DNA from: Actinoplanes lutulentus
GTDB taxonomy: Bacteria; Actinomycetota; Actinomycetes; Mycobacteriales; Micromonosporaceae
DNA length: 64,000 nucleotides
Direction of reading: 5' to 3'
NCBI RefSeq assembly: GCF_003259845.1
Contig: NZ_QLMJ01000005.1
Location: 62,001 to 126,000 of the forward strand
The notes beneath the pieces were generated by a model. It had not been told where the DNA came from. It saw only the letters and a list, made by a program, of their open reading frames with translations, and made no database searches. This document shows, in pieces, positions 8,441 through 25,197 of this stretch. Position numbers and translations under genes: made by a program. Every line of letters begins with the position of its first letter. The stretch's first letter is position 1.

Positions 8441-8459
8441 TTAGGTAAGCCTCTCCTAA
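8441..8459. promoter_or_regulatory. Iron box (IdeR/DmdR1 type)
   Basis: TTAGGTAAGCCTCTCCTAA matches the actinobacterial iron-box consensus TTAGGTTAGGCTAACCTAA at most positions. It lies 49 bp before the YncE-like gene start, fitting iron-dependent repression. Confidence 0.8.
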
Positions 8460-8507: not shown

Positions 8508-9545
8508 ATGTCTGTAACCACCCGTCGCCTGGCGGCAGCCGCCGTCCTCGCCGCCGCCACCGGTGTGCTGGCTGTTCCGGGCACCGCGACCGCCCACCAG
8601 GACGTCACCACGGTCACGTCCGCCGACCTGATCAAGGGTCTGTACCAGTCCGATTACTCGCAGCGGAACAAGGCCATCTGGGTCACCGCCGCCGTCGGCC
8701 GCCCGCCGGTGCTCAGCTCCGCGCTCCTCAAGGTGGACCCGAAGACGCTCGCCGTCGAGGCCACCATCACCCCGCCGGTCACCAACGAGACCACCGGCGC
8801 CCTCGAGGCCGTCTACGGTGTCGCGGTCGACGACGAGTACAACCGGGTCTGGGTGACCGCGACCCGCAACAACGCCGTCGCCGTGTACGACCAGCGGACC
8901 GGTGCGCACGTCGCCAGCTTCGCGAACGTGCCGCACGCCCGTGAGATCGTCGTCGACGAGAAGCACAACACCGTGTGGGCCAGCGCGTTCACCTCGGGTG
9001 AGCTGGTCGCGTACGACAGCAAGACCCTGGTCGAGAAGAAGCGGGTCGTGGTGACCGGCGCCGGCCCGACCGGCCTCGTCGTCGACGAGAAGAGCGGCAA
9101 CCTGTACGCCGCCGACCTCAACAACGACAGGATCATCGTGGTGTCGCCGAAGTCGGAGACCCCGAGCTTCATCCCGACCGGCGACGGCCCGATCTCGATC
9201 GACCTGTCGGACGACGGCAAGACCGCGTACACCGCGAACCAGACCGCGGGCAGCGTCTCGTTCGTCAACCTGAAGACCGGCACGGTCACCGCTGAGGTGC
9301 CGACCGGCGCGGGTGCGCTCTCCGTCGCGTACGAGGAGCGGTCCGGCACGGTCCTGGTGGCGAACCGTACCGCCGCCACCGTGACGATCGTCGACGCCAA
9401 GACGGCCGTCGTCGAGGAGAACATCGCCACGGCCGCGAACCCGAACCACATCGAGACCGCGAACGGCAAGGCGTACGCCGTGGACAAGTCCGGCGCCGGC
9501 ACCGACGGCGTGGACTTCATCTACAAGATCGACCCCGCCAACTGA
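8508..9545 (+). CDS. Iron-regulated secreted YncE-like beta-propeller protein
   Basis: 345 residues. Signal peptide about 1-29 (cleavage after TATA), then a single beta-propeller built from YVTN-like repeats (for example VTATRNNAVAVYDQRTG, ANRTAATVTIVDAKT). E. coli YncE is a secreted, iron-repressed propeller, and the iron box upstream fits the same behaviour; the molecular function in that family is unsettled. ATG preceded by AGGAG at 8498-8502. A strong hairpin follows the stop, so it is probably transcribed alone. Confidence 0.88.
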   Translation: MSVTTRRLAAAAVLAAATGVLAVPGTATAHQDVTTVTSADLIKGLYQSDYSQRNKAIWVTAAVGRPPVLSSALLKVDPKTLAVEATITPPVTNETTGALEAVYGVAVDDEYNRVWVTATRNNAVAVYDQRTGAHVASFANVPHAREIVVDEKHNTVWASAFTSGELVAYDSKTLVEKKRVVVTGAGPTGLVVDEKSGNLYAADLNNDRIIVVSPKSETPSFIPTGDGPISIDLSDDGKTAYTANQTAGSVSFVNLKTGTVTAEVPTGAGALSVAYEERSGTVLVANRTAATVTIVDAKTAVVEENIATAANPNHIETANGKAYAVDKSGAGTDGVDFIYKIDPAN

Positions 9546-9582: not shown

Positions 9583-9592
9583 CACTCCGTCG

Positions 9593-10228
9593 GTGCTGGA
9601 GTTGTTGCTGCCGTCATCGGTGCGTACCGCCGAGGCGTTCACCGACGACCCGAGCGAACCGTGCTTTCCCGGCGAGGAAGACCTGATCGCGACAGCGGTG
9701 CCGGGCCGCCGCCGCGAGTTCCTCACGGCCCGCCGCTGCGCCCGCGAGGCGCTGGCCCTTCTCGGTCAGGCGCCGGTCGCGATCCGCCCCGGCCCCCGCC
9801 GCGAGCCGCTCTGGCCCGATGGGGTGACCGGCAGCATCACCCACTGCGCCGGATATCGCGCCGCGGCGGTCGCCGTTACCGCTGATGTACGCGGTCTCGG
9901 GATCGACGCCGAACCGCACGCCCCGCTGCCACCGCGTGTCCTGCCCGCGGTGACCACCGCACAGGATCAGGAACACCTCGCGGTTCTGGCGAAGTCGGAG
10001 CCGTCGGTGCACTGGGATCGGCTGCTCTTCAGCGCCAAGGAGTCGGTGTACAAGGCCTGGTATCCGGTGGCCCGGACCTGGCTGGGTTTCACCGACGCTC
10101 ACTTGATCATCGACCCCGGAGGTTTGTTCCGGGCGGAGATCTTGATCGATGGGCCTTTTGAAAAGATCACCGGCCGCTGGGTGATCGAACACGGTCTCGT
10201 CGTCACCGCCGTCACGGTTGATCACTGA
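9593..10228 (+). CDS. 4'-phosphopantetheinyl transferase (Sfp/EntD type)
   Basis: 211 residues. It transfers phosphopantetheine from CoA to carrier-protein serines. Seen: GSITHC, GIDAEP (Mg-binding Asp and Glu) and FSAKESVYKAW, the three Sfp/EntD signatures. It is the natural activator of the ArCP (27126-27446) and of the T domain of the NRPS (17818-21609). GTG start 47 bp after the YncE-like gene. Its stop overlaps the convergent sortase gene by 7 bp. Confidence 0.94.
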   Translation: MLELLLPSSVRTAEAFTDDPSEPCFPGEEDLIATAVPGRRREFLTARRCAREALALLGQAPVAIRPGPRREPLWPDGVTGSITHCAGYRAAAVAVTADVRGLGIDAEPHAPLPPRVLPAVTTAQDQEHLAVLAKSEPSVHWDRLLFSAKESVYKAWYPVARTWLGFTDAHLIIDPGGLFRAEILIDGPFEKITGRWVIEHGLVVTAVTVDH

Positions 10229-11685
10229 GACTTCGCCGTCACCTCGTCCAGTACCGCGAAGAGGATGTAGCGCTGTTTCGACGAGAACCTCGGATGGCAG
10301 GCGGTCAGCGTCAGCATCGCCACGGTCGGTTCCACGCCCGGTTTCTCCGGGGTCGGCGCGACCACGTCCACCCGGGTCGGCGGCACGATCACGTGCCGCT
10401 GAACGCGATAGACATACATGCTCGTCGCGGTCTCCACCATGATCGGATCGCCCGCGCGCAGGGTGTCGATGTCGTTGAAAGGCAGTCCCGCCGGCCCGCG
10501 ATGCCCGGCTACGGCCATGTTCCCGATCTGCCCCGGCAGCGCGCTCCCCGGATAATGCCCGGGCCCTTTCCGCAGGTCAGCAGTGCTGACACCCTCGACG
10601 ATCGTGTACTCGGCATGCCATCGAGGCACGTGCAGCACCGCAAAGGGCTGCCCCTGAACGGGCGCCGGCTGGTCCAGGCTGGTGACGGTCGTCGTGTCGT
10701 GGTTCTTCGCTTCGGTGGCCGGAGCACCGGCCCACGCCGCCGCCAGCTGACTGTCCAGCGCCGCCTGCGCGCCGGCCGTCTCCGGCCCGGGCAACAGCGT
10801 CTGCGCCGCCAGCACCACCGCACAGAGCCCACCCGCCGCGATCAACCCGGCCCCACCGGCTCGCAGCGGCGACATCCGCTTCAGCGACGCTGCCGCCCTG
10901 ACGATCAAAATCAGACCCAGGGGTACGAGTAAAAGCAGCCATGGCCACACCGCGGTGCTCGTGGTGAACGTGGCTTCGGTGCCGGCCGTGCCGTCGATCC
11001 GCCCGGTCAGCTGATATCGGCCGGCCGCCGGGGCTGCCACCGCGAACGGGATCTCCAGCCGCAGCTCGGCACCCGGTGCCAGCGGCCCGATCGGCAGCGC
11101 CTTCATCGCCTCGGATCCAGCGGCCCGGCCCAGGTCCAGGCTCAACTCGGACCCGGGGGAGGCGGCGGTCCCCTCGTTGCGCACGGTCACCGTCATCGTC
11201 CGGTATGCCGTACCGCCGAGCAGCGACCACAGGGTCCAGCGGTTCCGCACGCCGGCGTCCAGGACGGTGAGCTCCGCGTCGCCGGTGGTGGCGGTGACCG
11301 TGGCGGCGTCCGCCACGTCGGTCACGTCGATCGGGGTGTCGGCGATCTTCTCGCCGGTGATTGTCGACGCGCGGACCACGCACGGGCAGCCGACCGGCGG
11401 GGCCGAGACGCGCAACCGGAGGCCGGCCTTGCCGGTGGCGGGCACCGAGGTGGACGAGGCGGATTGCACGGCGCAGTCGGCGGAGCCGTCCCGGGCCTCG
11501 TTGCCGCAGAGGGAAGCGGTGACGACACCGGCCGGCCAGCCGGTGAGCGAGACGGTGATGGTGTCGCCGATCAGAGTGGTCTTCTGATCGACAGTGATGG
11601 CGGGGCCGGCCGCCGAGGCTGATCCGGGGATGGCCAGGAGTGCCAGGAGTGCCAGCGCGGCGGTGAGCGTGGCCGCTCTTCTCAT
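10222..11685 (-). CDS. Multidomain membrane protein with C-terminal class E-type sortase
   Basis: 487 residues. Order: signal peptide 1-25; a neocarzinostatin-like beta domain with paired cysteines (VSLTGWPAG, PVGCPCVVRAS); a second beta domain to about 250; two transmembrane helices near 255-310; an extracellular sortase from about 340. Sortase residues seen: His in AGHRG, Cys in LTLTACHPR, and the Arg of SSKQR. Sortases cleave an LPxTG-like signal and attach the protein to the wall; fusion to adhesin-like domains is unusual. ATG 11685 overlaps the previous stop (ATGA) with GGTGAGGG upstream. Possible client: the LPKTG protein at 15084-15680. Confidence 0.85.
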   Translation of the reverse strand: MRRAATLTAALALLALLAIPGSASAAGPAITVDQKTTLIGDTITVSLTGWPAGVVTASLCGNEARDGSADCAVQSASSTSVPATGKAGLRLRVSAPPVGCPCVVRASTITGEKIADTPIDVTDVADAATVTATTGDAELTVLDAGVRNRWTLWSLLGGTAYRTMTVTVRNEGTAASPGSELSLDLGRAAGSEAMKALPIGPLAPGAELRLEIPFAVAAPAAGRYQLTGRIDGTAGTEATFTTSTAVWPWLLLLVPLGLILIVRAAASLKRMSPLRAGGAGLIAAGGLCAVVLAAQTLLPGPETAGAQAALDSQLAAAWAGAPATEAKNHDTTTVTSLDQPAPVQGQPFAVLHVPRWHAEYTIVEGVSTADLRKGPGHYPGSALPGQIGNMAVAGHRGPAGLPFNDIDTLRAGDPIMVETATSMYVYRVQRHVIVPPTRVDVVAPTPEKPGVEPTVAMLTLTACHPRFSSKQRYILFAVLDEVTAKSQ

Positions 11686-12677
11686 GCCCTCACCTTTCGG
11701 CGGCGTCTGACTGCCCAGGTCACGACGGCTGCCAGGAGCAGGATCAGCAGGTAGTACCAGGACCAGGCCCACACGCCCACAGTGGATTTCGCGGTGGCGC
11801 GGTCAGGGGAGGACAGCTCGACACTTGCGGTCAGGCGGAGTAGGGCTGGGCGGGCGGTTACGCGTACCGTGCGCTCCAGAGCCGCACCGGGCAGAAGCTC
11901 GGGCAACGCGTCGGGGTGGGCCGAATCGGCCGCCAGGCCGAAGAGGCCGGCGACCGTGACCGACTGGCCCGGCGTGATGCGGGTGTTCCCGGTGTTGCGG
12001 ACGGTGTATGACAGTTCGAGGTCGCCGGTGAACGGCCGCCACCCCGTGCGATAGGTCGCGCGCAGATCGTCCACCCGCAGGCCGGGATGCAGGTCGCCGG
12101 TGACTCGCAGGTAGAGACGGGTGCCGACGCGCTGCTCGACGCGAGTGGTGTTGCCGGTGGCGTCCGCCGAGGCCGTGGTGATCGAGGCGACGATGCCGCC
12201 GGCGTGGTCACCGGGAGTGGCGTTCTCTGGGATCTTCAGCACGAACGGGATGTCCGCGCGGGAGCGGGCCGGAACGGTCACCGTTTTCGCGCCGAGCTCG
12301 ATCCATGATCCGACGTCGGTGGATTCGCGGGTGGCCGGGAGCAGGTCGTATCCGCCGGACGCGGTGGTGAACGCGTCGCTGCCGTACACCGTGAAGGTCA
12401 TCTCCGCGGTGCCGAGGTTGGTGACCGCGAGGTAATCGGTGACCGTGCCGCCGGGCACCAGGTCGTAGGTGAAGAACGGCCGGTTGCCGGGGCCGGTCTT
12501 GCTCGAAGGCTGCACGGACCAGGCGGCGTCGGCTTTCGCGGCTTTCGCAGTGCTTGTCGCGGTTTTCACGGCGCTTTTCGCGGCTTCCGCGGTGCTTGTC
12601 GCGGGGAGAGCGGCGGACGCGGGCGTGGGCGCGGCGAGCAGCGTGAGCGCGGTGAGCGCGGCGGCAGTCCTGGACAC
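11682..12677 (-). CDS. DUF916-like (WxL-interacting) membrane protein
   Basis: 331 residues: signal peptide 1-23, an Ala/Lys/Thr-rich stretch, then beta domains beginning FFTYDLVPGGTVTDYLAVTN, a typical DUF916 / WxL-interacting-protein start, a second domain of the partner type from about 185, a transmembrane helix near 300-322 and a basic tail RRRRKVRA. In Firmicutes such proteins pair with WxL proteins and bind peptidoglycan. GTG 12677 is chosen for AAGGA six bases upstream; the frame open to 12791 runs through a terminator hairpin. Its neighbours (WxL-domain protein upstream, sortase downstream) complete a surface operon. Confidence 0.82.
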   Translation of the reverse strand: MSRTAAALTALTLLAAPTPASAALPATSTAEAAKSAVKTATSTAKAAKADAAWSVQPSSKTGPGNRPFFTYDLVPGGTVTDYLAVTNLGTAEMTFTVYGSDAFTTASGGYDLLPATRESTDVGSWIELGAKTVTVPARSRADIPFVLKIPENATPGDHAGGIVASITTASADATGNTTRVEQRVGTRLYLRVTGDLHPGLRVDDLRATYRTGWRPFTGDLELSYTVRNTGNTRITPGQSVTVAGLFGLAADSAHPDALPELLPGAALERTVRVTARPALLRLTASVELSSPDRATAKSTVGVWAWSWYYLLILLLAAVVTWAVRRRRKVRA

Positions 12678-12704
12678 ATCGATTCCTTCGCGGTCTTTTA
12701 CCAA

Positions 12705-12744
12705 CGACAACCGGGACAGGATTCGCGGCCCGTCCCGGTTGTCG
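12705..12744 (-). terminator. Terminator/attenuator between the WxL-domain and DUF916-like genes
   Basis: CGACAACCGGGAC (12705-12717) pairs perfectly with GTCCCGGTTGTCG (12732-12744) around 14 nt. It follows the WxL gene stop and precedes the DUF916 start by 28 bp, so it may set the ratio of abundant surface protein to membrane partner. Confidence 0.75.
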
Positions 12745-12753
12745 TGCGCCGAA

Positions 12754-13944
12754 CTAGATGGCGGTGAGGGTGAGCGTCGCCGAGTAGTCACCCGGCGCCG
12801 TGGTGGTGGGCAGGCGCAGTTCGAGACCCGCGCCGAGTGCCGCGGTGCCCCGGCCGGCGCCGGACGCCGCCGTCGCGAGGGCGGACGCCGACTTCAGGCC
12901 GGTGCCCGCGGCGACCGCGGAACCCGCCGTGACCTGCTGGCCCGCCGACGTCGTGACGACCTTCGGGGTCCAGCCGAGGTACTTGCCGTCGACGGTTCCG
13001 GCCGTGCCGGTGAAGTCACCGATCTGGCCGGAGACGCTCCAGCCCGGGTTCGCGGCACGCAGGTCGCTGACCGTGACGGTCGGCAGCGCGCCGGTGGAGA
13101 CCAGGGCGTCGAGCTCGGAGGTGACCTGCGGCGTGCTCAGCGCCACCGAGCCGGAGCTGACCTTGATGGCGAGCGCGCCGGTGTCCGGAACGCTGGCCGT
13201 GATGGTCACGGTCGCCGACACCGCGCCGGGCTCCTCGGTCTCCTCGGCCGCGACGGTGAAACTCACCTGGACGCTGACGCCGGGGGAGGCGAGGAAGTGC
13301 AGGGTGTGCGCGCCCTCCGCGGCGGTCGCCGGCACCGGTACGGCCTGACCGGCGAACGTGCCGTCGGCGCCGCTCGTGAACGTGGTCAGGATCGTGGTCT
13401 TGTCGAGCTTCACGGTGACCGTTGTGGACGCCGGATATCCGGCGCCGGAAGCGGTCAGGCTCGCGCCCGCCGTCACCGTGTCGGAGGCGAGGGTCACCGC
13501 GGGGGTGGCCGCGGCCGCTTCCACGGTGAACAGCTCGGTGTGCACGCTGCGTACCGCGTCGCCGGCCGCACCGGATCCGGTGAGCATCCGCAGCCAGTGA
13601 CCGGAACCGGTCACCGAGGCCGGCAGGGTGACCGAGCCGGTGACCGTGCCGGTGCCGTCCGCGGCCTTCACCTCGGCGAAGACGTCGGAGCCGGCGGCGT
13701 CGCGCACCACCCCGTCGTCGATCTTCACCATGACCACCGAGCCGGTGCCGTCGGTGTTGACGAAACCGGTGCCGGTGAAGTTGACCTTCCCGCCCGGGGT
13801 GGTCGTGGTGGAGACCAGCGCGACGGTGGCGCCGCTGGCGTTGTCCGGCCGCGGATCGGCGGCGAGCGCCGGCGCGGCGACCGCGACGGCGGCGACCAGG
13901 CCGGTGATGACCGCTGCCCATATAGGAGGTCGTGAGGGGTTCAA
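12754..13944 (-). CDS. Secreted WxL-domain protein with two Ig-like modules
   Basis: 396 residues. Signal peptide about 1-29; two related beta modules (about 36-140, with FTGTGFVN and HWLRMLTGSG; about 145-228, with LTASGAGYP and HTLHFLASPG); an acidic linker; and a WxL-type domain from about 235 with VSDLRAANPGWSVSG, a GWTP segment and a C-terminal LPTTTAPGDYSATLTL. WxL domains bind peptidoglycan non-covalently. Module 1 is clearly related to the LPKTG protein at 15084-15680. TTG 13944 is preferred (AAAGGACC upstream) because the longer start at 13995 would sit against the iron box. Confidence 0.78.
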   Translation of the reverse strand: MNPSRPPIWAAVITGLVAAVAVAAPALAADPRPDNASGATVALVSTTTTPGGKVNFTGTGFVNTDGTGSVVMVKIDDGVVRDAAGSDVFAEVKAADGTGTVTGSVTLPASVTGSGHWLRMLTGSGAAGDAVRSVHTELFTVEAAAATPAVTLASDTVTAGASLTASGAGYPASTTVTVKLDKTTILTTFTSGADGTFAGQAVPVPATAAEGAHTLHFLASPGVSVQVSFTVAAEETEEPGAVSATVTITASVPDTGALAIKVSSGSVALSTPQVTSELDALVSTGALPTVTVSDLRAANPGWSVSGQIGDFTGTAGTVDGKYLGWTPKVVTTSAGQQVTAGSAVAAGTGLKSASALATAASGAGRGTAALGAGLELRLPTTTAPGDYSATLTLTAI

Positions 13945-14004
13945 GGCGAGGTCCTTTCCGATTGTGAGTGAGATTGTTGACCAAAAGGTCATCACAATCG
14001 TGAA

Positions 14005-14023
14005 GGAGGTTAGGCTAACCTAA
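14005..14023. promoter_or_regulatory. Iron box in a divergent promoter region
   Basis: GGAGGTTAGGCTAACCTAA matches the iron-box consensus at 17 of 19 positions, including an uninterrupted TTAGGCTAACCTAA. It separates the WxL-domain surface operon (minus) from the siderophore-uptake operon (plus), so one site can repress both in iron-replete cells. Confidence 0.88.
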
Positions 14024-14078
14024 CGTCGGCCAGCTAGACAGAGTGCAGCTGGTCACCTGAAGCTTTTGGAGGGCATCG

Positions 14079-15074
14079 GTGGGAACACGCGGCTTGCGCG
14101 TTTTGACTGTCGTGAGTGTTCTCGGAATGGCCCTGACCGCCTGCACATCCGGTTCCGCAAGCGACTCCACGGGTGCTGACGGGCGTACCGTCGTGGATGG
14201 AAACGGTGTGAGCGTGACCGTTCCGCGGAGCCCGGCCCGGGTGGTCGCGCTCAGCGAGCCCACACTGGACGGCGCGCTTGCGCTCGGCGTCGACGTCGTC
14301 GGCACCACGAGCGGCCGTGGGCAGGGAAGTGTGCCCGGTTACCTGAGCGACCAGGCCGACGGGATCCCGATCGTCGCCTCCGTCGCCGGGCCCAACATCG
14401 AGCAGATCCTCGTGCTCAAACCCGACCTTATCGTCACCGACGGCACCGTGGCCGCCGACGAATCGGTCCTCGGCAAGCTCGCCGGCATCGCGCCCACGGT
14501 CTTCGTGAGCAAGAAGGCCGCCGACTGGAAAGGCGCGTTCACCAGCCTCGCCGAGGTGCTCGGCAAGAGTGCCGAGGCCGAGAAGGTCCTGGCCGGGTAC
14601 GCCAGCCGGGTCGACGAGATCCGCGGCAAGCTGGGCGACCACGCCGACGACACGGTCAGCATCGTCCGCTGGGGCACCGGCCAGCCCTCGGTGATCCTCA
14701 AGGAGCTGCCGCCCAGCAAGGTGGTCGCCGACGTCGGCCTGCGCCGCCCGGCCGCACAGGACAAGGACGGTCTCGGCCACTCCACGCCGGTCAGCCGGGA
14801 GAACCTCGACCAGCTCGACGCGGACTGGATGTTCTTCGGCACCCTCGGTGGCGCGACGAACCCGCAGGGCGGCAATACCGGAACCGCGGTCGGCGTCGAG
14901 GCCAGCGCGAAGATGCTCCAGGACGACGCGCTCGTGACTCCCGGGTTCACGCAGCTCACGGCGTACCGCAACAAGCACGTCATCCCGGTGGACGGCTCCG
15001 CGTGGGCCAGCGCGGGCGGCCCGTTCGCCGCCACCGTGATCCTCGACCAGCTCGGCACAGCTCTTCTCAACTAA
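14079..15074 (+). CDS. Iron-siderophore ABC transporter substrate-binding lipoprotein
   Basis: 331 residues. Lipobox LTAC at about 19-22, then a FepB/FhuD-type class III binding fold (ARVVALSEPTLDGALALGVD near the start, a long central helix, ANKHV-like C-terminal strand). It should capture ferric siderophore outside the membrane and deliver it to the FecCD pair downstream. GTG start with GGAGGG at 14068-14073. First gene of an iron-box-controlled operon. Confidence 0.93.
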   Translation: MGTRGLRVLTVVSVLGMALTACTSGSASDSTGADGRTVVDGNGVSVTVPRSPARVVALSEPTLDGALALGVDVVGTTSGRGQGSVPGYLSDQADGIPIVASVAGPNIEQILVLKPDLIVTDGTVAADESVLGKLAGIAPTVFVSKKAADWKGAFTSLAEVLGKSAEAEKVLAGYASRVDEIRGKLGDHADDTVSIVRWGTGQPSVILKELPPSKVVADVGLRRPAAQDKDGLGHSTPVSRENLDQLDADWMFFGTLGGATNPQGGNTGTAVGVEASAKMLQDDALVTPGFTQLTAYRNKHVIPVDGSAWASAGGPFAATVILDQLGTALLN

Positions 15075-15083
15075 GGATCTCTC

Positions 15084-15680
15084 ATGAGAGTCGCCGTCAT
15101 CGTTGCTCTTGTCTTCGCCGGCGTTATTACCGGTGGGCCGGCTTCTGCTTCTGCTTCGGCTTTGGTTTTTGCGCCTCGGCCGTCGAACCCGGTTGGTGCG
15201 ACGGTGTCGCTCGCCTCCAGCAGTGTGGTGGCGGGTAAGACGATCCGGTTCACCGGAACCGGGTTCGTCAATGACAGCGGTCGTGGCCAGGTTGTCACGA
15301 TCAAGCTGGACGATGTGGACATTCTGCGGACCGTGAACGCCAGCGACAGCGGGGCGATCTCCGGGACGGTGACGGTGCCGGCGGCCACGAAGGCGGGGGC
15401 TGAGCACTGGTTGCGGTTCCTGGCCGGGTCCGGGCAGGAGAACGACTCGCCGGCGCGGAGCCTGGCGAGCGGATATTTCGCCGTCACCGGGGCGTCGTCT
15501 TCTTCCCCGGCGGCGTCGGTTTCCGCGTCGGCGTCCGCCGCCGCGTCTGTTTCCTCTGGGAACACGCTGCCTAAAACGGGCATTGACGCTGGTCCGCTGC
15601 TGGCCGGGACCATCGCGCTGCCGATCGCCGGGATCGCGTTGCTGCTGATCGAACGGCGTCGCCGGCGGGCATCTGCGTGA
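15084..15680 (+). CDS. LPKTG-anchored surface protein in the siderophore-uptake operon
   Basis: 198 residues. Signal peptide about 1-24; one beta module (about 36-134) with FTGTGF at 56-61 and HWLRFLAGSG at 108-117, homologous to module 1 of the WxL protein; a Ser/Ala spacer (137-159); then the complete sorting signal: LPKTG at 162-166, a hydrophobic helix and RRRRR. It sits between the binding protein and the permeases, a position suggesting a wall-bound step in iron capture. Ligand unknown. The sortase at 10222-11685 is the nearest candidate anchor enzyme. Confidence 0.87.
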   Translation: MRVAVIVALVFAGVITGGPASASASALVFAPRPSNPVGATVSLASSSVVAGKTIRFTGTGFVNDSGRGQVVTIKLDDVDILRTVNASDSGAISGTVTVPAATKAGAEHWLRFLAGSGQENDSPARSLASGYFAVTGASSSSPAASVSASASAAASVSSGNTLPKTGIDAGPLLAGTIALPIAGIALLLIERRRRRASA

Positions 15681-16708
15681 CGATCCTGTCGGCCCGGCCG
15701 GCTATTCGTCGCGCTTCCTCCAGCCGTCGCTTTATCGCGCTCGCTCTTGCCGGGGTGGTGCTTCTGATCGCTGTGGTGGCGAGTGTCGCCCTCGGGGCCA
15801 GGCCGGTTCCACTCGGACACGTGTGGGCTGCGCTGACCGATTATGACGGTAGCTCTGACGCTGTCGCGGTTCGCGATCTGCGGTTACCCCGTACCCTCCT
15901 GGGGGTTTTTGTCGGCGCCGCTCTCGGCGTCGCCGGATGTCTGATGCAGGCGCTGACCCGCAATCCGCTCGCCGAGCCGGGCGTGCTCGGCGTGAATGCC
16001 GGCGCCGCCGCGGCGATCGTCAGCGCAATGAGTTTCCTGGGTGTGACCGCACCGGCCGGGTACGTCTGGTTCGCGATGGCCGGCGCCGGCGGCGCTTTCG
16101 CGCTGGTCTACCTGCTCGGCGGAGGCGGCCGGATCAAGGAGTCACCGGCCCGCCTCGCCGTGGCCGGAACCGCCGTAGGCGCCGCGCTGACCGGCTTCAC
16201 CTCAGCCGTAGTGCTTTTCGACTCGACCGCTTTCGATCAGTTCCGTTTCTGGGCCGTGGGTGCCCTCGCCGACCGCGGCATGCCGGTCTTCTGGCAGGTG
16301 GCGCCGTTCCTCGCGGGCGGCCTGCTGCTCGCGGCGTCGATCGGCCCGGCGCTCAACACCCTCGCCCTCGGCGACGATCAAAGTCGGTCACTAGGGTCAA
16401 ACCCCCTTGTGGTACGCGGAACCGCGGCGCTAGCGGCCGTAGCCCTGAGCGCCGGGGCGACCGCCGCAGCCGGGCCGATCGGGTTCGTGGGGCTGGCCGT
16501 ACCGCACGCGGCCCGCTTCATCGTCGGCGCCGACGAACGCTGGCTGATGGCGTTCTCCGCGCTGGCCGCACCGAGCCTGCTGCTGATCGCCGACGTGACC
16601 GGGCGGGTCCTGGGGAGGCCGGGCGAGCTGGAAACCGGGGTGGTGACCGCGATGGTGGGGGCGCCGCTCTTCATCTACCTGGTCCGGCGGTTGCGAGTTC
16701 CCGCATGA
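15677..16708 (+). CDS. FecCD-family siderophore ABC permease (first subunit)
   Basis: 343 residues with about nine or ten membrane helices. FecCD features: LRLPRTLLGVFVGAALGVAG, QALTRNPLAEPGVLGVNAGA, and the late GPIGFVGLAVPHAAR loop that contacts the ATPase. GTG overlaps the LPKTG gene stop, indicating coupled translation. It pairs with the next gene to form the membrane channel. Confidence 0.95.
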   Translation: MTILSARPAIRRASSSRRFIALALAGVVLLIAVVASVALGARPVPLGHVWAALTDYDGSSDAVAVRDLRLPRTLLGVFVGAALGVAGCLMQALTRNPLAEPGVLGVNAGAAAAIVSAMSFLGVTAPAGYVWFAMAGAGGAFALVYLLGGGGRIKESPARLAVAGTAVGAALTGFTSAVVLFDSTAFDQFRFWAVGALADRGMPVFWQVAPFLAGGLLLAASIGPALNTLALGDDQSRSLGSNPLVVRGTAALAAVALSAGATAAAGPIGFVGLAVPHAARFIVGADERWLMAFSALAAPSLLLIADVTGRVLGRPGELETGVVTAMVGAPLFIYLVRRLRVPA

Positions 16709-17739
16709 GATCCGCTGTCCTGCGGGTCGGGCCGGTCTCGACGCGGTTCGCGCCGCGCGCCGTGCTGGCCGGCTTGCTGATCACGCTGGTAGCGGCCGCG
16801 ACCGCCGTCTACAGCCTCACCGTCGGTGACTATCCGCTGAGTGTGTCCGAAGTGCTCGCCACACTCAGCGGTCACGGCGACCGGGCGTCCGAGTTCGCCG
16901 TCTACGGCCTGCGCCTTCCCCGGGTGCTCACCGCGCTCTTCGTGGGGATGGCGTTCGGCATGGCCGGCGCGGTCTTCCAGAGCCTCTCGCGTAATCCGCT
17001 GGGCAGCCCCGACATCATCGGCTTCACCACCGGCTCGGCAACCGGCGCGCTGATCGGCATCCTGCTGCTCGGCGGCGGCAGCCTGGTGATCGCCGGCAGC
17101 GCGGTCATCGGCGGCCTGGTGGTGGCCGCGCTGGTCTACCTGCTGGCGGTAACGGACGGCGTCGTCCGCCCGGGACAACTGGTGCTGGTCGGGATCGGGG
17201 CCAGCGCGGTGCTCGCCTCCTTCAACGGATATCTGCTGACAAGAGCGGATCTGGGCGACGCGATGCAGGCCGCGGTCTGGCTCACCGGCAGCCTCAACGG
17301 CCGTGGCTGGGAACACGCCATCCCGGTGGGCGTCGCGGTAGCTCTTGGCGGTGTCGCGGTGCTGTGCCTGGCCCGTCCACTGGACACGCTGGCGCTGGGC
17401 GATGACACGGCCGGGGGTTTGGGCGTACCGATCGAACGCGTACGCCGAGCCCTGCTGATCGGTGCCGTAGCCCTGACCGCGGTAGCCACCGCCTCGGCCG
17501 GCCCGGTCCCTTTCATCGCCTTGGCCGCGCCCCAGGTAGCCCGCCGCCTGACCCGCTCCCCAGACGCATCACCGCTGGTAGCGGGGCTGACCGGCGCAGC
17601 CTTGCTGGCACTGGCCGACTTGGCGGCCCAGCGCTTGTTCGCCCCGGTCGCCCTTCCGGTCGGGGTGCTGACGGCGGCCCTCGGTGGCGTCTACCTGGTC
17701 TGGCTACTGGCCGCCCAACGCAAAGCCGGCCGCTGGTAA
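16705..17739 (+). CDS. FecCD-family siderophore ABC permease (second subunit)
   Basis: 344 residues. FecCD signatures: LRLPRVLTALFVGMAFGMAG, QSLSRNPLGSPDIIGFTTG, and GPVPFIALAAPQVARR. The start is ATG 16705, overlapping the previous stop as ATGA; the open frame extends far upstream without homology. The operon ends here: no ATP-binding subunit follows, so the ATPase must come from elsewhere in the genome. Confidence 0.95.
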   Translation: MRSAVLRVGPVSTRFAPRAVLAGLLITLVAAATAVYSLTVGDYPLSVSEVLATLSGHGDRASEFAVYGLRLPRVLTALFVGMAFGMAGAVFQSLSRNPLGSPDIIGFTTGSATGALIGILLLGGGSLVIAGSAVIGGLVVAALVYLLAVTDGVVRPGQLVLVGIGASAVLASFNGYLLTRADLGDAMQAAVWLTGSLNGRGWEHAIPVGVAVALGGVAVLCLARPLDTLALGDDTAGGLGVPIERVRRALLIGAVALTAVATASAGPVPFIALAAPQVARRLTRSPDASPLVAGLTGAALLALADLAAQRLFAPVALPVGVLTAALGGVYLVWLLAAQRKAGRW

Positions 17740-17817: not shown

Positions 17818-20800
17818 TCAGCCGGCTAGGTGGGGGTTCAGGTCGTTGGCGATGATCTTCAGGGCGGCCGGGGAGACCATGCCCGGGTGGGTGCAGTCCA
17901 GCTCACGGACAACCACCTCACCACCGATGTACGACCCCCACGCGGACGCCGACAACCAGTCCTCGGCCCGGGGCGCCGCCGCTACGAAGATCAGCGCGTC
18001 GCCGTCGTAGAAGCGGTGCTGGTGCTCGCGCATCATCCGCGCGTTCTCGGCCACGACCAGCGGGATCTTCGCGAGCACGTCGTCGCCCAGCTCGGCGAGC
18101 GGGCTGTCCGCCCGCCGCAGAACCCCGACCACGGACTCCACAGTGAGCGGCCCGCCGACAGCGGACTCGTCGCGCCCCGCCATGTGAAGAAGCGCCCGCA
18201 ACGCGTCCTCGGACGACGGCGCGGGCAGGTCACGCCACTGATCACTGGGGTACGCGTCAAGCAGCGCCAGCATCGACACCTCCTCACCGGCCGCCCGCAA
18301 CGCCGCCGCGATCTCCTGAGCGAGAACGCCCCCGATCGACCACCCCGCCAGCGCATAGGGCCCACCCGGCCGAATATCCTGAATTTCCGTGATATAGCGG
18401 GCGGCTGTCTCCGCAAGGGAAGCCGAGTCATCAATAAAAGCCGTGAACGCCGGCGACTGGATCCCGTAAACCGCCACCGACGGATCCAGATGCGCCAGCA
18501 AACCCGAATAACACCAGGCCAACCCACCCGCCGGATGCACCACGAACAACGCCGGCCCGGATCCCGCCCGCAGCGGCAGCACGACACCCAGCCCATCGGT
18601 GCCGGCCACTGAAGGATCGAGACGCGCCGCCAGCCCCGCCACCGTCGGCGCCGCGAACACCGCTGCCAGCGACAATTCCGACCCCAGCGAAGCCCGGATC
18701 CGCTGCACCAGCGTCACCGCCAGCAGCGAATGCCCACCCAGATCGAAGAAATTGTCGTCCGGCCCCGGCAACGGCACCTCCAGCACCTCGGCCATCAGCC
18801 GCGCGACCGCCACCTCCGCCGGCGTCCGCAGCGTGCCACCGGAAACAGCCGCAGCCGGTGCCGGCAGCGCCTGCCGGTCCAGCTTTCCGCTGGGCGTCAG
18901 CGGCAGCTCACTCATTTCCACCACGGCGCCGGGCAGCATGTGGTCCGGCACAAGCGGCGCAAGATACGCCCGAACCCCTTCAAGATCAAGATCACCCACT
19001 ACGTACGCACAAAGCCGCCCGTCAATCAGCGCAACAGCCGCCCGCCCCACGGCCGGATGCTCGTTGAGCAGTGCTTCGATCTCCCCGAGCTCGACCCGGA
19101 ATCCACGGATCTTGACCTGTCCGTCGGTGCGGCCGAGGAACTCGATCGTCCCGTCAAAACGCCATTTAGCCAGGTCACCGGCCCGATAGAGCCGCCCGAG
19201 AAGAGGATCGTCGAGGAACCGCTCGGCGGTCAGCGCCGGTCGGTTCAGATATCCGGAGGCCAGCTGCGCCCCGGCGATGTAGAGCTCACCCGGCACACCC
19301 GGCGGCACCGGCCGGCGGCCCGCGTCGAGCAGATAGATCTGGGTGTTCCAGACCGGCCGCCCGATCGGCACCGGCCCGGGCGGATCACTCGGCAGCACCG
19401 GCTGATACGTCACGTCGACCGAGGCCTCAGTGGGTCCATAGAGATTGTGAAGACCGGAACCGATCACCGCGTGGAAGCGCCGCGTCAGATCCTCGGGCAG
19501 CTCCTCACCACTGCAGATCACCCGGCGCAACGTCGCACGGGTGGATGCGGCGGCCTCCTCGCCGAGGAAGACCCGCAGCATCGACGGCACGAAGTGGACC
19601 GTCGTGACGCGTTCCTGAACGATCAGTGATGCCAGGTAGGCGGGGTCCTTGTGCCCTTCGGGCTTCGCCATGACCAGGGTGGCCCCGGTGATCAGCGGCC
19701 AGAACAGCTCCCAGACGCTGACGTCGAAGCCGATCGGCGTCTTCTGCAGAACCCGTTCGCCGGGTGCCAGACGGTACTCGTGCTGCATCCAGAGCAGCCG
19801 GTTCACGATGCCGCGATGCGGGACGAGCACACCTTTCGGCCGCCCGGTCGACCCCGACGTGTAGATCGCATAGGCCGTGTCAGAAGGCGACGCCTGGCCG
19901 ATCTCGATCAGCGGAACCGGGCAGCGGGAAGGTAGTTCGCGCAGCACGACGACCGGCTGCGCGTCCTCGACCATGAAGGCCAGCCGGTCGGCCGGATACG
20001 ACAGATCCAGCGGCAGATATCCGGCGCCCGACCGCAGCACACCGAGCAGCGCCACCATCAGATCGATGCCGCGCGGGATCGCGACCGCGACGAGCGTGCC
20101 GGGTTTCGCACCGCGCTCGGCAAGCCACCGCGCCAGGCGGTCAGCGCGTTCATGCAGCTCCGCATAGCTGATCTCGACGCCCTCCGCGCGGACCGCGGGG
20201 GCATGCGGCGTCCGTGCGGCCTGTTGCGCCAGGAGCGTGGTCAAGGTCTTCTCGGGTACGCGCGAAGCAGTCTCGTTCCAGGCGCGGAGCACGAGATCTC
20301 GTTCGGTGTCGGTCAGCACGTCCACCTCGGACACCACCTGGTCCGGGCCGATGTCGGCGAACGTGGTGAAGAGCCGGATCAGCCGCGCGAAGTGCCCGTC
20401 GAGTTCCTCGTCGCTGTAGCTGTCCGGGTTGGCGTCGACGGTCAGGTCGAGCCGCCCGGTGCCGGCGTCCAGCCCGACGGTGACCTCAAGGTCCTCAGTC
20501 GGTCCGGTGGCGAGGTAGTGAACCCGCGCGGACACGCCCGGGCCGAGGTCGAGACTGCGGCGGAACGGTTTGACGTTGACCTGCGGCCCGGACAGTCGCC
20601 GTCCGGTACCGACCAGCCCGAGATCGCGTTGCAGCCACTCGTACCGATATCGCTGATGGCGCGAGACGGCGCGCAACTCGTCCCGCACGGCCGCGACCAA
20701 TGCACGCAGAGTGATGCCTTCCGGAGCCGCCAGGCGCAACGGCAGGACGTTGACCACGCTGACCGGCACCCGCGCGGCGCCGGTGCCGAGGCGGCCGGAG

Positions 20801-21609
20801 ACCGGCATGCCCAGGGTCAGGTCGGCCTCGCCGGTGATCCGGTGCAGGTAGAGGGCGGTGATGGCGTACGCGGCCTCGGCCCACGTGACGCCTAGCCGGT
20901 CGGCGGCGGCGCGCAACTCGTCGGCTGTGGACTCGGGTAATTCGATGTGCCGGTGTGCGTACCGATGGGAAGTGGGCGCGGGCCGCTGACTGAGGGTGAC
21001 CGGTTCGCGGGTGTTCTTGAGGCGGTCGAGCCAGAACCTGCGGTCGTCGGCGAACCTGTCGGAGGCGATGTAGGCCCGCTCGTCCTCAGCCAGCGAGTCG
21101 ACGGTCCGGAACGCGGCCGGGAAAGCGTCCTGGAAGGTCGAACCCCGGCCGAGCGCGGCGTACGCGGCCACGACCTTCTCGGTGACCATCGCGAAGGCGT
21201 ACCCGTCGAGCAGGATGTGATGCGCCCGGAAGTACCAGACGGCCTGTTCCGGGCCGGTGCGAAGCACCGCCTGGCGAACGAGTGGCGCGCCGGTGAGCGG
21301 CAGCGCCTCCGCGAGGTCGGCGTCGATCCAGCGGCGGACGGCGGCCTCGCCGGGCAGATCCACGATCTCCGGTCCGGTGGCCGGCTGCTCGATCCGCCAG
21401 ACCTGGTCACCCTCGGCGGCGAAGCCGGTACGCAGCACGTCGGTGGCCTCGGTGACCTGCCGGATCGCCTCGGCGAGCCGGTCCGTGTCGAGAGGACCGT
21501 CGATGGTGATGCGGTGGGCGCAGAGGTACGACGGGTTCTGAGGATCGAGGAGCTGGGCGAACCAGAGCGCCTGCTGAGGAGCGGTCAGGGGGCGGTGATC
21601 AACATCCAT
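17818..21609 (-). CDS. Single-module NRPS (C-A-T-TE), EntF-like, predicted serine-activating
   Basis: 1263 residues. C domain about 1-440 (HHILLDG at 130-136); A domain about 470-960 with YTSGSTGRPKG; T domain with DLGGHSLL; TE from about 1060 with GWSIGG and a late CTHPG His. The specificity pocket (FDVSVWELFW, TTVHFVPSM, VICSGE, YGPTEASVDV) reads as a DVWH-I-S-L-V-D-K-like code, matching serine in EntF. This predicts condensation of 2,3-DHB with Ser and TE-driven oligomerisation. The ATG is within 3 bp of the iron box, so the mRNA is probably near-leaderless. No MbtH gene is nearby. Confidence 0.93.
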   Translation of the reverse strand: MDVDHRPLTAPQQALWFAQLLDPQNPSYLCAHRITIDGPLDTDRLAEAIRQVTEATDVLRTGFAAEGDQVWRIEQPATGPEIVDLPGEAAVRRWIDADLAEALPLTGAPLVRQAVLRTGPEQAVWYFRAHHILLDGYAFAMVTEKVVAAYAALGRGSTFQDAFPAAFRTVDSLAEDERAYIASDRFADDRRFWLDRLKNTREPVTLSQRPAPTSHRYAHRHIELPESTADELRAAADRLGVTWAEAAYAITALYLHRITGEADLTLGMPVSGRLGTGAARVPVSVVNVLPLRLAAPEGITLRALVAAVRDELRAVSRHQRYRYEWLQRDLGLVGTGRRLSGPQVNVKPFRRSLDLGPGVSARVHYLATGPTEDLEVTVGLDAGTGRLDLTVDANPDSYSDEELDGHFARLIRLFTTFADIGPDQVVSEVDVLTDTERDLVLRAWNETASRVPEKTLTTLLAQQAARTPHAPAVRAEGVEISYAELHERADRLARWLAERGAKPGTLVAVAIPRGIDLMVALLGVLRSGAGYLPLDLSYPADRLAFMVEDAQPVVVLRELPSRCPVPLIEIGQASPSDTAYAIYTSGSTGRPKGVLVPHRGIVNRLLWMQHEYRLAPGERVLQKTPIGFDVSVWELFWPLITGATLVMAKPEGHKDPAYLASLIVQERVTTVHFVPSMLRVFLGEEAAASTRATLRRVICSGEELPEDLTRRFHAVIGSGLHNLYGPTEASVDVTYQPVLPSDPPGPVPIGRPVWNTQIYLLDAGRRPVPPGVPGELYIAGAQLASGYLNRPALTAERFLDDPLLGRLYRAGDLAKWRFDGTIEFLGRTDGQVKIRGFRVELGEIEALLNEHPAVGRAAVALIDGRLCAYVVGDLDLEGVRAYLAPLVPDHMLPGAVVEMSELPLTPSGKLDRQALPAPAAAVSGGTLRTPAEVAVARLMAEVLEVPLPGPDDNFFDLGGHSLLAVTLVQRIRASLGSELSLAAVFAAPTVAGLAARLDPSVAGTDGLGVVLPLRAGSGPALFVVHPAGGLAWCYSGLLAHLDPSVAVYGIQSPAFTAFIDDSASLAETAARYITEIQDIRPGGPYALAGWSIGGVLAQEIAAALRAAGEEVSMLALLDAYPSDQWRDLPAPSSEDALRALLHMAGRDESAVGGPLTVESVVGVLRRADSPLAELGDDVLAKIPLVVAENARMMREHQHRFYDGDALIFVAAAPRAEDWLSASAWGSYIGGEVVVRELDCTHPGMVSPAALKIIANDLNPHLAG

Positions 21610-21611
21610 AG

Positions 21612-21630
21612 TTAGGGTAGCCTAACCAAA
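21612..21630. promoter_or_regulatory. Iron box between NRPS and Fes-like esterase genes
   Basis: TTAGGGTAGCCTAACCAAA matches the iron-box consensus at 16 of 19 positions. It touches the NRPS start (ATG at 21609, minus) and lies 28 bp before the esterase ATG (21659, plus), so it can control both. Confidence 0.82.
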
Positions 21631-21658
21631 CTAGGTGAGTGGTGTCGTGGAGGTGTGC

Positions 21659-22909
21659 ATGGCTGTGGAGCGGCCGAAGATCGTCCCGCCGACGTCGGTC
21701 CCGCCGAGGACTCCGCGCCCCGCGCCGCCGGCCATCGTGGACAGCCCGCGGATCCAGCGGTTGCGTGACGACGGCCCGGACGCGGTCGCACGGTTCTGGG
21801 CCGAGCTGACACACGCCGGCACCCCGCTGATCGAGCGGGACGGCGACGCCACGCTGATCACTTTCGTCTGGCGCGAGCGGCGGCCCACCCGTGACGTGCT
21901 GGCGCTGGTCAACAAGCTGGCCGACCGTTCCGACCTGGGCCGGTCCCGGATGCGCCGGCTGCCCGGCTCGGATCTGTGGCACCTGACCTACCGGGTACGC
22001 GACGACTGGATGGGCAGTTACCACTTCGCGCCGGACGAGTCGGAGCACGAGCCGCTGGAGCTGGGCCCGGCGCACTGGCGCATGGTCGCGACCAACCTGG
22101 TGGCCGACCCGCTCAATCCGGTGACCCTGCGGCAGTCCCGGCCGCCGCACAAATCGGTGGCTGCCGGTCCCGCCGCGACACCGTTGCCGCACTGGTGGGA
22201 GCGTCGATCCGGGGTGCCCGAGGGAACCGTGGAAACGGTCGAGGCCGGCGGGCGGCGGGTCTGGCGTTATCTGCCGGCGGGATATCGGGGCCACGCTGAG
22301 GCGTACCCCATGATGGTTTTGCTTGACGGTGACATCTGGGGTCCGCTGCTTCCGGTGGCGCCCGTGCTCGACAACCTGATCGCGGCCGGCCGGATCCCGC
22401 CGCTGGTCGCGCTGCTGCCGGAGAGCGGGGATCAGCCGACCCGATTCAGTGAGTACGCGTGTGACACGGCCTTCACCGAGTTCCTCGCCACCGGACTGAT
22501 CGCCGAGGCCGGGCATGATCTGAATCTGACATCCGACCCGGCCCGGACCGTCATCGCCGGGCAGAGCCTCGGCGGGCTGGCCGCCGCGTTCGCCGGTTTC
22601 ACCCACCCGGAGCGGTTCGGCAACGTGCTCAGCCAGTCCGGCGCGTTCTGGTGGAAGAGCGGCACACCGGACGATGTGGACGCCGAGTGGTTCGCGCATC
22701 AGGTGGCGCTGGCCGACCGGCGGCCGGTCCGCTGGCACGTCGAGGTCGGCCTGGACGAGTGGGTGAACCTGCGCCCCAACCGCCACCTGCGCGACGTGCT
22801 GACGGCACGGGGTTACGAGCTGACCTACACCGAGTTCGCCGGTGGCCACGACCGCCTCTGCTGGCGCGAGCATTTCGGCAACGCCCTGTCCACCCTGCTG
22901 CCCCGCTGA
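21659..22909 (+). CDS. Ferric enterobactin (enterochelin) esterase-like protein
   Basis: 416 residues. N-terminal Fes-type beta domain (about 20-165, including WMGSYHFAPD), then an alpha/beta-hydrolase esterase domain: MMVLLDGDIW, nucleophile Ser in GQSLGG, catalytic His in GGHDRLCWR. Fes enzymes hydrolyse the ester bonds of enterobactin-type triesters to free iron in the cytosol; no signal peptide is present. ATG 21659 has GGAGG at 21649-21653; the earlier GTG 21635 lies beside the iron box. Its presence argues that the siderophore is a DHB-serine ester. Confidence 0.93.
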   Translation: MAVERPKIVPPTSVPPRTPRPAPPAIVDSPRIQRLRDDGPDAVARFWAELTHAGTPLIERDGDATLITFVWRERRPTRDVLALVNKLADRSDLGRSRMRRLPGSDLWHLTYRVRDDWMGSYHFAPDESEHEPLELGPAHWRMVATNLVADPLNPVTLRQSRPPHKSVAAGPAATPLPHWWERRSGVPEGTVETVEAGGRRVWRYLPAGYRGHAEAYPMMVLLDGDIWGPLLPVAPVLDNLIAAGRIPPLVALLPESGDQPTRFSEYACDTAFTEFLATGLIAEAGHDLNLTSDPARTVIAGQSLGGLAAAFAGFTHPERFGNVLSQSGAFWWKSGTPDDVDAEWFAHQVALADRRPVRWHVEVGLDEWVNLRPNRHLRDVLTARGYELTYTEFAGGHDRLCWREHFGNALSTLLPR

Positions 22910-22974: not shown

Positions 22975-23613
22975 TCATGCGGGGGTCAGCAGGTCGGCGG
23001 TCAGCTCGCGGGTGGACGCGACCACGCCGCAGCGCGTCTGCACGTGGCGCAGCGCGTCGGCGTGGTGGGCCGGGCTGAAGTCGGCGACCGCGTCGGTCAC
23101 CACGAACGGCTGGACGCCGCGCATGAACGCGTCCATCGCCGTGGCCAGCACCCCGATGTGCGCGTAGACGCCGGTGACGATCAGCTGGTCACGCCCGCCG
23201 AGCACCGCGTCGAGGTCGGTGCCGACAAACGCGCTGTACCGCCGTTTCGTCAGCACGACGTCACCCGGCGCGGGCCGCAGCGCATCCGTGATCGCCAGCG
23301 CCTGGGCATCCGCCGGCGGCCCGTCACCCCAGAAGTCCTGGAGCAACCCACGTTCCGAGCGGGACTGACCGCCCGGCTGAGCGGAGAAGATCACCGGAAT
23401 CCCGGTACGCCCGGCATGCTCCCGCAACGTCGCGATGTTGCCGACGACCTTGGAGAGCAGCGCGTTGTCGGCGGTCCCGAACGGCGCCAGGAAATAGTTC
23501 TGCATGTCGTGCACCAGCAGCGCGGCCCGAGCCGGCTCGACGCGCCAGTGGACCTTGCCGCCGGCCCGGGTGAAGCCGCTGGGCAGGTGGTACGGGGTGA
23601 TGCGGGGAAGCAC
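22975..23613 (-). CDS. entB: Isochorismatase, stand-alone (EntB N-terminal domain)
   Basis: 212 residues. It hydrolyses isochorismate to 2,3-dihydro-2,3-dihydroxybenzoate and pyruvate. Seen: catalytic Asp in LLVHDMQNYF, Lys in LTKRRYSAF, and GVYAHIGV. The Cys of typical cysteine hydrolases is Val here, as in PhzD-type isochorismatases. E. coli EntB carries an aryl-carrier domain; here that domain is absent and encoded separately at 27126-27446. Last gene of the DHB operon, 3 bp after entE. Confidence 0.95.
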   Translation of the reverse strand: MLPRITPYHLPSGFTRAGGKVHWRVEPARAALLVHDMQNYFLAPFGTADNALLSKVVGNIATLREHAGRTGIPVIFSAQPGGQSRSERGLLQDFWGDGPPADAQALAITDALRPAPGDVVLTKRRYSAFVGTDLDAVLGGRDQLIVTGVYAHIGVLATAMDAFMRGVQPFVVTDAVADFSPAHHADALRHVQTRCGVVASTRELTADLLTPA

Positions 23614-23616
23614 GGC

Positions 23617-25197
23617 TCAGCCTTTCGATGTGGTGATCAGCTCGCGGAGCAGGGTGCGCAGTTCCCGCCGGCTCGTCTTGCCGACGCCGGTCACCGGGAA
23701 CCGCTCCACCACCCGCAGCCGGTCGGGGATCTTGTAGGCGGCCAGACCTCGGTCGCGCAGGTGGGCACGGATCTCCGAGAGCTTGGGTACGCGTACCCCA
23801 GGCTTGACCACGACGAAGGCGCAGCTCCGCTCACCGAGGTACTCGTCGGGTATCCCGACCACCGCCGCGTCGTGCACGGCCGGATGGGTCAGCAGGTGGT
23901 CCTCGACCTCCTCGGCGGCGATCTTCTCGCCACCCCGGTTGATCTGGTCCTTGGCCCGCCCCTCGACGACCAGATAACCGCCGGGCAGCCGCCGCACCAG
24001 ATCCCCGGTGCGATAGAAGCCGTCCTCGGTGAAGGCGACCTTGTTGTGATCGTCGGCGTTCCAGTAGCCACGGATCGTGTACGGGCCCCGGGTCAGCAGG
24101 TGCCCGACGGTTCCGTCCGGCACGTCGGAGTCCTCGTCGTCGACGATCCGGATCTCGTCGTCGGGGGAGATCGGCCGGCCCTGGCTGTGCAGGACCACGT
24201 CGTCCGGGTCGTCCAGGCGGGTGTAGTTGACCAGACCCTCCGCCATGCCGAAGACCTGCTGGAGCCGGCATCCGAGGGCGGGCCGGATCCGTTCGGCCAC
24301 CGAGTCGAGGAGTTTCGCGCCGCCGACCTGGAGGGTTTCCAGACTGGACAGGTCAGGCTTCGTCCGGTCGGCGGCGTCGAGCCACACCAGGGCCAGCGGC
24401 GGGACCAGTGCGGTGATGGTGACCGACTCCGCCGAGATCAGCGGGAAGGCCGTGGCCGGGTCGGGCGTCGTGGAGAGGACGACAGTTCCTCCGGTGTGCA
24501 GGACACCGAGGACACCGGGTGAGGACATGGTGAAGTTGTGCGCGACCGGGAGGGCAACCAGGTAGGCGCTGTCCTGATTCAGGCGACATATCTGGGCACT
24601 GGCTCGGACGCTGTAGAGGTAGTCGTCGTGAGTTCGCGGTATCAGCTTCGGCAGGCCCGTGCTGCCGCCGGAGAGCTGAAGAAACGCCAGGTCCGAGGGC
24701 TTGGGCCCAGTAGGGAGCGGGCCATCGCTGTAAAGCGTGTCAAGGGCGATAAACCCACCCGGATCGCCGGCCACGATCGTCAGGCCGTCCCCCGCCAGAC
24801 TCCGATGATCAAAGCCGTCGTACACATCCATGGTGATGAACGCGACCGCCGACGTGTGCGAACGGAAGTACCCGATCTCCGCGCTCCGGTGCGCGGGCAG
24901 GGCGAAGACCGGCAGCGCCCCGATCCGGAACAACGCGAAGATCACGTCGAAGAACTCGGGCACGTTGGGCAGCTGGACCACGACCCGATCACCCGGCCGG
25001 ATCCCGCGCGCATAAAGGCCCGCGGCCAGCCGAGAGGCACGATTCCGCAGCTCACGGTAGGTGATCCGCTGTTCCCCGGAGACGATCGCGACCCGGTCGG
25101 CAAACGCGGCGGCACTCTCCCGGAGCAGGTCGTCGAACGTCTGCCCGATCCAGTAGCCCTTCTCCCGATAACGCGCTGCGAAATCCTCAGGCCACAT
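23617..25197 (-). CDS. entE: 2,3-dihydroxybenzoate-AMP ligase
   Basis: 526 residues, full length for EntE/DhbE. It adenylates 2,3-DHB and loads it on the aryl carrier protein. Seen: [18 protein letters not shown] (P-loop), the YRTGDLVRR loop, and [11 protein letters not shown] with a late catalytic Lys in the C-terminal subdomain; the pocket stretch [13 protein letters not shown] is typical for DHB/salicylate ligases. ATG overlaps the entC stop by 11 bp, with GGGAG upstream. Confidence 0.96.

Follow-up and report, generated by a model that had tools for sequence, protein, structure and literature searches.

An unnamed Ig-like module in two surface proteins of an iron-regulated siderophore locus in Actinoplanes lutulentus

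How bulky ferric siderophores get through the thick walls of Gram-positive cells is, apart from diffusion to lipoproteins, little understood. For heme, Isd/NEAT systems repeat a small Ig-like domain in surface proteins with differing anchors and end at a lipoprotein and an ABC permease. Here we describe a locus of similar layout in a 64,000-nucleotide stretch of the genome of the soil actinobacterium Actinoplanes lutulentus (contig NZ_QLMJ01000005.1, positions 62,001 to 126,000; hereafter the window, whose own numbering is used throughout). Two of its encoded proteins, one ending in a WxL-like domain and the other in an LPKTG sorting signal, carry what sequence comparison identifies as homologous copies of an unnamed Ig-like module. 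As in Isd, one small Ig-like domain is combined with several anchors, with a lipoprotein and permeases at the end of the path; unlike in Isd, neither module protein matches a NEAT domain (Pfam, E 1), and the context is that of a siderophore rather than heme.

The window also encodes a secreted YncE-like beta-propeller. E. coli YncE (PDB 3vgz), whose gene is iron-regulated, is homologous to it over nearly its whole length; to our knowledge, it has neither an Ig-like module nor a wall anchor. Two surface propellers of Bacteroides offer functional precedents. XusB, a seven-bladed propeller that binds ferric enterobactin, resembles the window system in standing at the surface beside its importer, but it is a DUF4374 lipoprotein feeding a TonB transporter, and the consulted part of its description notes no Ig-like module (PMC13142918). 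BtuG binds vitamin B12 at the surface and is labelled 'YncE family' in some PDB entries; like the proposed role of the window propeller, its task is to capture a metal chelate, although it is a Gram-negative lipoprotein with a corrinoid ligand (PMC10404256). The anchoring genes recall clusters in which a large WxL protein, a WxL-interacting protein (WxLIP) and an LPxTG protein are encoded together (PMC10599100, PMC9772566), a setting best known from Firmicutes, which hold >91% of WxL proteins (PMC9772566). The window locus differs from these clusters in that it is iron-boxed and has degenerate WxL motifs, and no small WxL gene was noticed in it. Finally, with ZnuE/ZnuF/ZnuG of Corynebacterium diphtheriae, a single importer locus encodes sortase-anchored as well as membrane-tailed proteins that share a metal-binding domain; compared by description only, they differ from the window proteins in serving zinc through an HxD/HxH motif (PMC12445094). 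A literature search of open papers, judged by title or the start of the abstract, found none with an account of this module, or of a YncE propeller within a siderophore locus of actinobacteria.

One module in two differently anchored proteins

The WxL-like protein (12754..13944, minus strand) comprises a signal peptide, module 1 (~13516..13869, minus strand), a degenerate module 2 without the KxDD and HWLR motifs (13249..13503, minus strand) and a WxL-like C-terminal domain. The LPKTG protein, a sortase substrate (15084..15680, plus strand), comprises a signal peptide, one module (~15177..15485, plus strand), a Ser/Ala linker and an LPKTG-transmembrane-RRRRR tail; the single module is its sole folded cargo. 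BLASTP aligns the two proteins at 43% identity over 136 residues (E 4e-26), beginning inside the signal peptide, and aligns the second copy with the LPKTG protein at 40% over 78 residues (E 2e-8). The Smith-Waterman score against the LPKTG module is 223 with copy 1 and 111 with copy 2; over 1000 shuffles of that module, the maxima were 65 and 59. A search of the complete 9.89 Mb genome with the LPKTG module retrieved just the two WxL copies (E 5e-17 and 5.8e-6); the next match lies at E 0.225, so the likeness exceeds general Ig-like resemblance. A preliminary description of the locus had proposed both the shared module and the weaker second copy, and these scores bear it out. Of the motifs it listed across the ~105-residue module, FTGTGFVN, VVxxKxDD and HWLRxLxGSG indeed occur in both proteins, while at the 'VPA' segment one protein has VPA and the other LPA. 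None of 21 module members scanned reached a Pfam cut-off. The window proteins match the GEVED, MG2, TIG and Big families only in part and below cut-off, and the 21 modules match them weakly (best E 0.0018); in the Streptomyces sequence L017, GEVED scores above its cut-off (51.7 vs 24.4 bits), its best stretch covering ~49 of 78 profile positions.

The anchors of the two proteins are assigned from signals of unequal strength. LPXTG motif, hydrophobic stretch and basic tail are all present by eye in the LPKTG protein, which scores below cut-off with the LPXTG profiles (PF00746, 15.2 against 20; TIGR01167, 12.7 against 15.9). The WxL domain profile PF13731 reaches 19.1 bits in the other protein, below its cut-off of 25, and the two Trp-x-Leu motifs are absent, the sole C-terminal tryptophans being W302 (WSV) and W325 (WTP); hence the name 'WxL-like'. 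The domain nevertheless occupies the C-terminal position, with WxLIP and LPxTG neighbours, as in WxL proteins. AlphaFold models the full-length protein with two confident Ig-like domains and a C-terminal domain at pLDDT ~40 or less (three-row alignment). Its gene probably starts at TTG 13944, given the preceding GGAAAGGAC ribosome site and the signal peptide. The WxL-like gene is followed by genes for a WxLIP (11682..12791, minus strand; peptidoglycan-binding domain PF06030, 41 bits vs a cut-off of 27.3; C-terminal membrane helix by eye) and for a sortase of class E whose N-terminal region is long (10222..11772, minus strand; NF033747, 196.8 bits vs 160). The sortase also shows a CARDB match slightly above cut-off, and its N-terminal region matches enediyne chromoproteins far below cut-off ('chromo_anti', NF040680, E 4.4e-7). 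A likeness of its middle region to Shiga toxin B (E 0.0026 or worse, far under the cut-offs) was judged to be chance.

Both units appear to be under iron control. Exactly one iron-box palindrome (14005..14023, plus strand) lies between the divergent units, as had been proposed. The rightward operon has the order fepB-LPKTG-fecCD-fecCD and encodes a FepB-like ferric-siderophore binding lipoprotein (14079..15074; PF01497, 83.6 bits), the LPKTG protein and two FecCD-type permeases assigned by Pfam (15677..16708, and 16741..17739 with an approximate start), all on the plus strand. The LPKTG gene, second in this order, is separated from fepB by a 9-base gap, and its stop codon overlaps the first fecCD start. 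The suggestion of two anchoring modes within one iron-regulated siderophore unit is thus supported.

That the pair arose by duplication within the functional unit, as a local event, finds no support. Both forms, WxL and LPKTG, are also present in Spirilliplanes and in Actinoplanes sp. RD1. A tree of 95 modules (90 usable columns, midpoint root, branching order uncertain) groups window WxL module 1 with insert-bearing modules of genomes G114, G956, G1086 and G1072 (14 rows, 99/95); the LPKTG modules fall outside this insert-bearing set, and adding them gives a group of 17 rows (97/92). On the tree and this distribution, the two forms appear to have separated before these genera did, which speaks against a recent local duplication. 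Modules from heme loci form one clade (100/99) and generic modules another (87/89), and the heme-locus clade groups with the generic modules, not with those of the window. Row L060, from the genome of L015, was left out of the tree; L097 was placed in the heme group with no heme gene matched in its stretch, L115 being the heme locus of the same genome.

Linkage to siderophore genes and a YncE-like propeller

Siderophore-type modules are constantly linked to siderophore genes and often also to a YncE-like propeller. In 15 of 15 genomes (the window, L014-L018, G444, G644, G645, G114, G956, G1086, G833, G820 and G1072), FepB/FecCD, a siderophore-interacting protein (SIP) or a nonribosomal peptide synthetase (NRPS)/Fes lies near the module. 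Of 200 genomes of the family, 3 have strong module pairs and four more give weak matches; within the genus, 2 of 67 genomes have such pairs. A scan of genome contigs gave five loci, in Spirilliplanes yamanashiensis, Actinoplanes sp. RD1, a Solirubrobacterales metagenome-assembled genome and two Streptomyces. A class-wide profile search (E 1e-6) matched 24 of 394 genomes, divided by context and tree into 7 siderophore-locus, 8 heme-locus and 9 generic; since the first-pass search scored a subset of the candidates in each genome, some may have been missed. The enterochelin esterase family PF11806 occurs in 39 of the 394 genomes, among them all 7 with siderophore-type modules and all 9 with YncE orthologues (E 1e-30); module and YncE coincide in 5 genomes. 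Among the other module genomes, PF11806 is found in 0 of 8 heme-locus and 2 of 9 generic ones.

The layouts of these loci vary. In Streptomyces, the relatives are encoded within the siderophore cluster, with no WxL, and a four-module protein, preceded by an iron box, has a Fes-type esterase on one side and a YncE-like propeller on the other. A ten-module protein adjoins an EntF-type NRPS in two genomes of another family, and copy number ranges from 1 to 10. Up to three anchors are used (WxL-like or propeller-fused, sortase-linked and membrane-tailed), and all stand side by side in G114 (L058), where a propeller and WxL-like fusion, an LPTTG protein and a membrane-tailed protein surround WxLIP, FepB and FecCD. 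Module and propeller are also fused in single polypeptides, as module-propeller-WxL (G114), module-propeller (G956, G1086) and propeller-module-module-LANTG (G1072). That three lineages show three domain orders speaks for a function common to module and propeller. A second G1072 locus, L096, had no transport genes matched, and L121 of the same genome contains propellers only, with no module match; three further YncE-like propellers of this 2.0 Mb genome lie there (8628-13069). No Fes was found near the propeller in G997 and G486. In L117, a Streptomyces YncE orthologue with an iron box (9483-10535) has no siderophore cluster matched nearby.

In the window, the YncE-like propeller (8508..9545, plus strand; 345 aa) reaches 33.8 bits with Pfam YNCE (PF21783; cut-off 27.1). 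Its family profile spans E. coli YncE structure 3vgz almost end to end (E 3.6e-37) and weakly matches 8blw and 8bmx (E 3e-6 and 1e-4), entries identified as BtuG (PMC10404256). The neighbouring propeller of Spirilliplanes (L014, 3934-4983), a poor match to YncE (23%), was excluded from A7.

The surrounding genes, annotated mostly by Pfam, suggest an iron-boxed cluster with an enterobactin-type product. They encode, on the plus strand, a 4'-phosphopantetheinyl transferase (9593..10228) and an enterochelin-esterase-type (Fes) protein (21635..22909; PF11806, 93.9 bits) and, on the minus strand, an EntF-type NRPS with C-A-T-TE architecture (17818..21609), an isochorismatase (22978..23613), an AMP-binding enzyme of the DHB-AMP ligase type whose 2,3-DHB ligase role is suggested by context (23620..25200), a chorismate-binding enzyme of the isochorismate synthase type (25199..25957, part of the gene), an EntA-type short-chain dehydrogenase (26362..27093) and a SIP of the ferric reductase type (33139..33939; PF04954, 129.9 bits). 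The iron-box pattern gives 9 strand-wise matches in the window, against 0.01 expected, and four boxes were assigned. Besides the box between the divergent units, these lie upstream of the YncE-like gene (8441..8459, 2-3 mismatches to the pattern), between NRPS and esterase (21612..21630) and at 27467..27485, all given on the plus strand. In L091, a FepC-type ABC ATPase gene stands between FecCD and Fes.

A distinct clade of related modules lies beside HmuTU in eight genomes (L098, L099, L100, L101, L102, L106, L112 and L115), with heme oxygenase in 7 and HtaA in 3 of the stretches read. The proteins look membrane-tailed in the five whose C-termini were inspected, and L106 (5076-7772) has its own WxLIP and WxL-like protein. 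WxL/WxLIP pairs may therefore serve more than one iron locus in Actinomycetota.

Proposed role and competing explanations

We consider it fairly likely that the module is part of an iron-regulated apparatus at the cell surface of some Actinomycetota that serves ferric catecholate (enterobactin-type) siderophores, and likely that the apparatus itself works on ferric catecholates; that the module touches the ligand is more doubtful. When iron is scarce, propeller and anchored module proteins would stand in the wall and catch returning ferric siderophore. The complex would then be handed to the FepB-like lipoprotein and on to the FecCD permeases, after which the Fes-type esterase would release the iron. 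The module could provide a second, relay binding site or, as a docking arm, tether propeller and FepB to the wall.

Several observations weigh against the assignment to such an apparatus. Firstly, the hypergeometric values for the three co-occurrences within the 394-genome set (5.5e-8 for module and PF11806, 3.7e-10 for YncE and PF11806, 3.4e-8 for module and YncE) ignore kinship, the 7 module genomes representing 5 genera. Secondly, the module is accessory: 32 of the 39 PF11806 genomes lack a siderophore-type module at the threshold used, and Streptomyces G532 and G895 combine Fes, iron box and propeller with no module in the 19.5 kb read. Thirdly, over the superfamily as a whole the link to iron is not specific to catecholates, since related but distinct modules occur in the heme loci of 8 genomes. 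Wider relatives end unrelated extracellular enzymes (L055, L114), as a spacer would. The G1072 modules score 26.6-52.3 bits, overlapping the generic range of 28.5-53.1, and their siderophore label consequently rests on tree and context. The structures that match the propeller profile (E 0.001) do not include XusB. Finally, no ABC ATPase with P-loop and LSGG (FepC type) was found in the window, despite FepB and two FecCD permeases.

The preliminary description had gone on to regard the module as the ligand-binding part. This does not follow from its duplication, given the relatives at the ends of unrelated enzymes, and the YncE-like propeller in the regulon is the stronger candidate. Because of the XusB and BtuG precedents and the profile matches to 3vgz and BtuG, the propeller appears the likelier primary binder. 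The strongest alternative, a real possibility, makes the module a passive spacer or docking arm that holds propeller and FepB at the wall while these two alone bind the siderophore. Generic relatives near the C-terminal anchors of unrelated enzymes, a copy number of 1 to 10, fusions that set modules beside propellers, the presence of propeller and Fes without a module, and a ligand-binding precedent that belongs to propellers are all consistent with a spacer. Two features speak against one: the LPKTG protein displays one module and nothing else, and conservation within siderophore-locus modules goes beyond a spacer's needs. Of 70 siderophore-locus modules, 44 have both KxDD and HWLR; of 25 others, none does (0 of 16 generic, 0 of 9 heme-locus). 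AlphaFold models the LPKTG module as a seven-strand Ig-like sandwich (pLDDT 91.7, pTM 0.84), in which strand 44-49 terminates at KxDD (Lys48, Asp50, Asp51) and strand 84-88 starts at HWLR (His82, Trp83, Arg85; numbering of the translation of 15162-15485). In this model, the two motifs may form one patch. A stronger proposal, which we regard as rather unlikely, is that the module is a new ferric-catecholate-binding domain whose copies, with up to three anchors, relay siderophore through the thick wall to FepB with the YncE-like propeller as collector, a siderophore counterpart of the NEAT heme relay.

The fold itself offers a further lead. VIA-align ranks macromomycin (Z 9.6), neocarzinostatin and C-1027 (both Z 9.3) as the best structural matches of the module model, with rmsd 2.2-2.3 over 85-87 residues. 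These enediyne apoproteins are, like the module, small actinobacterial Ig-like proteins, and they carry ligands. Their margin over unrelated Ig-like chains is less than 1 Z, Foldseek returned no match for the model at E 0.001, and the Neocarzinostatin family (PF00960) is not among the 19 families listed for the 21 modules (Pfam, E 10). Kinship was rejected, as it would depend on fold ranks: profile searches of the PDB, a phmmer search with the sortase N-terminus (no matches) and the Pfam scans of 21 modules gave it no sequence support. The likeness is suggestive as a lead, not as kinship. Of the wall-anchored proteins CwpA and CwpB of Actinoplanes missouriensis, one is reported to have a neocarzinostatin-like domain (PMC13251363).

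We consider it improbable that the two proteins act at the surface as adhesins or in peptidoglycan binding and have no more than the iron regulon in common with the uptake genes, in the manner of the host- or substrate-binding WxL clusters of Firmicutes. Firmicutes gene sets for WxL, WxLIP and LPxTG proteins are linked to adhesion in the parts of the literature consulted (PMC10599100, PMC9772566), but the LPKTG gene is embedded between fepB and fecCD, and the Streptomyces relatives lie inside a siderophore cluster without WxL. Least probable is binding of heme or another iron chelate instead of a catecholate: the related clade beside HmuTU speaks for it, but its members have neither KxDD nor HWLR and cluster with generic modules, and the window locus has catecholate genes and no match to HtaA (PF04213, which occurs in the heme-locus relative L098) or heme oxygenase.

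The apparatus proposed here is directly testable; propeller and module are small and secreted and should be easy to purify. If true, it would mean that some Actinomycetota possess a wall-anchored catecholate collector and relay, tied to enterobactin-type clusters, as a siderophore analogue of Isd, and YncE-like propellers would gain a function in Gram-positive bacteria.

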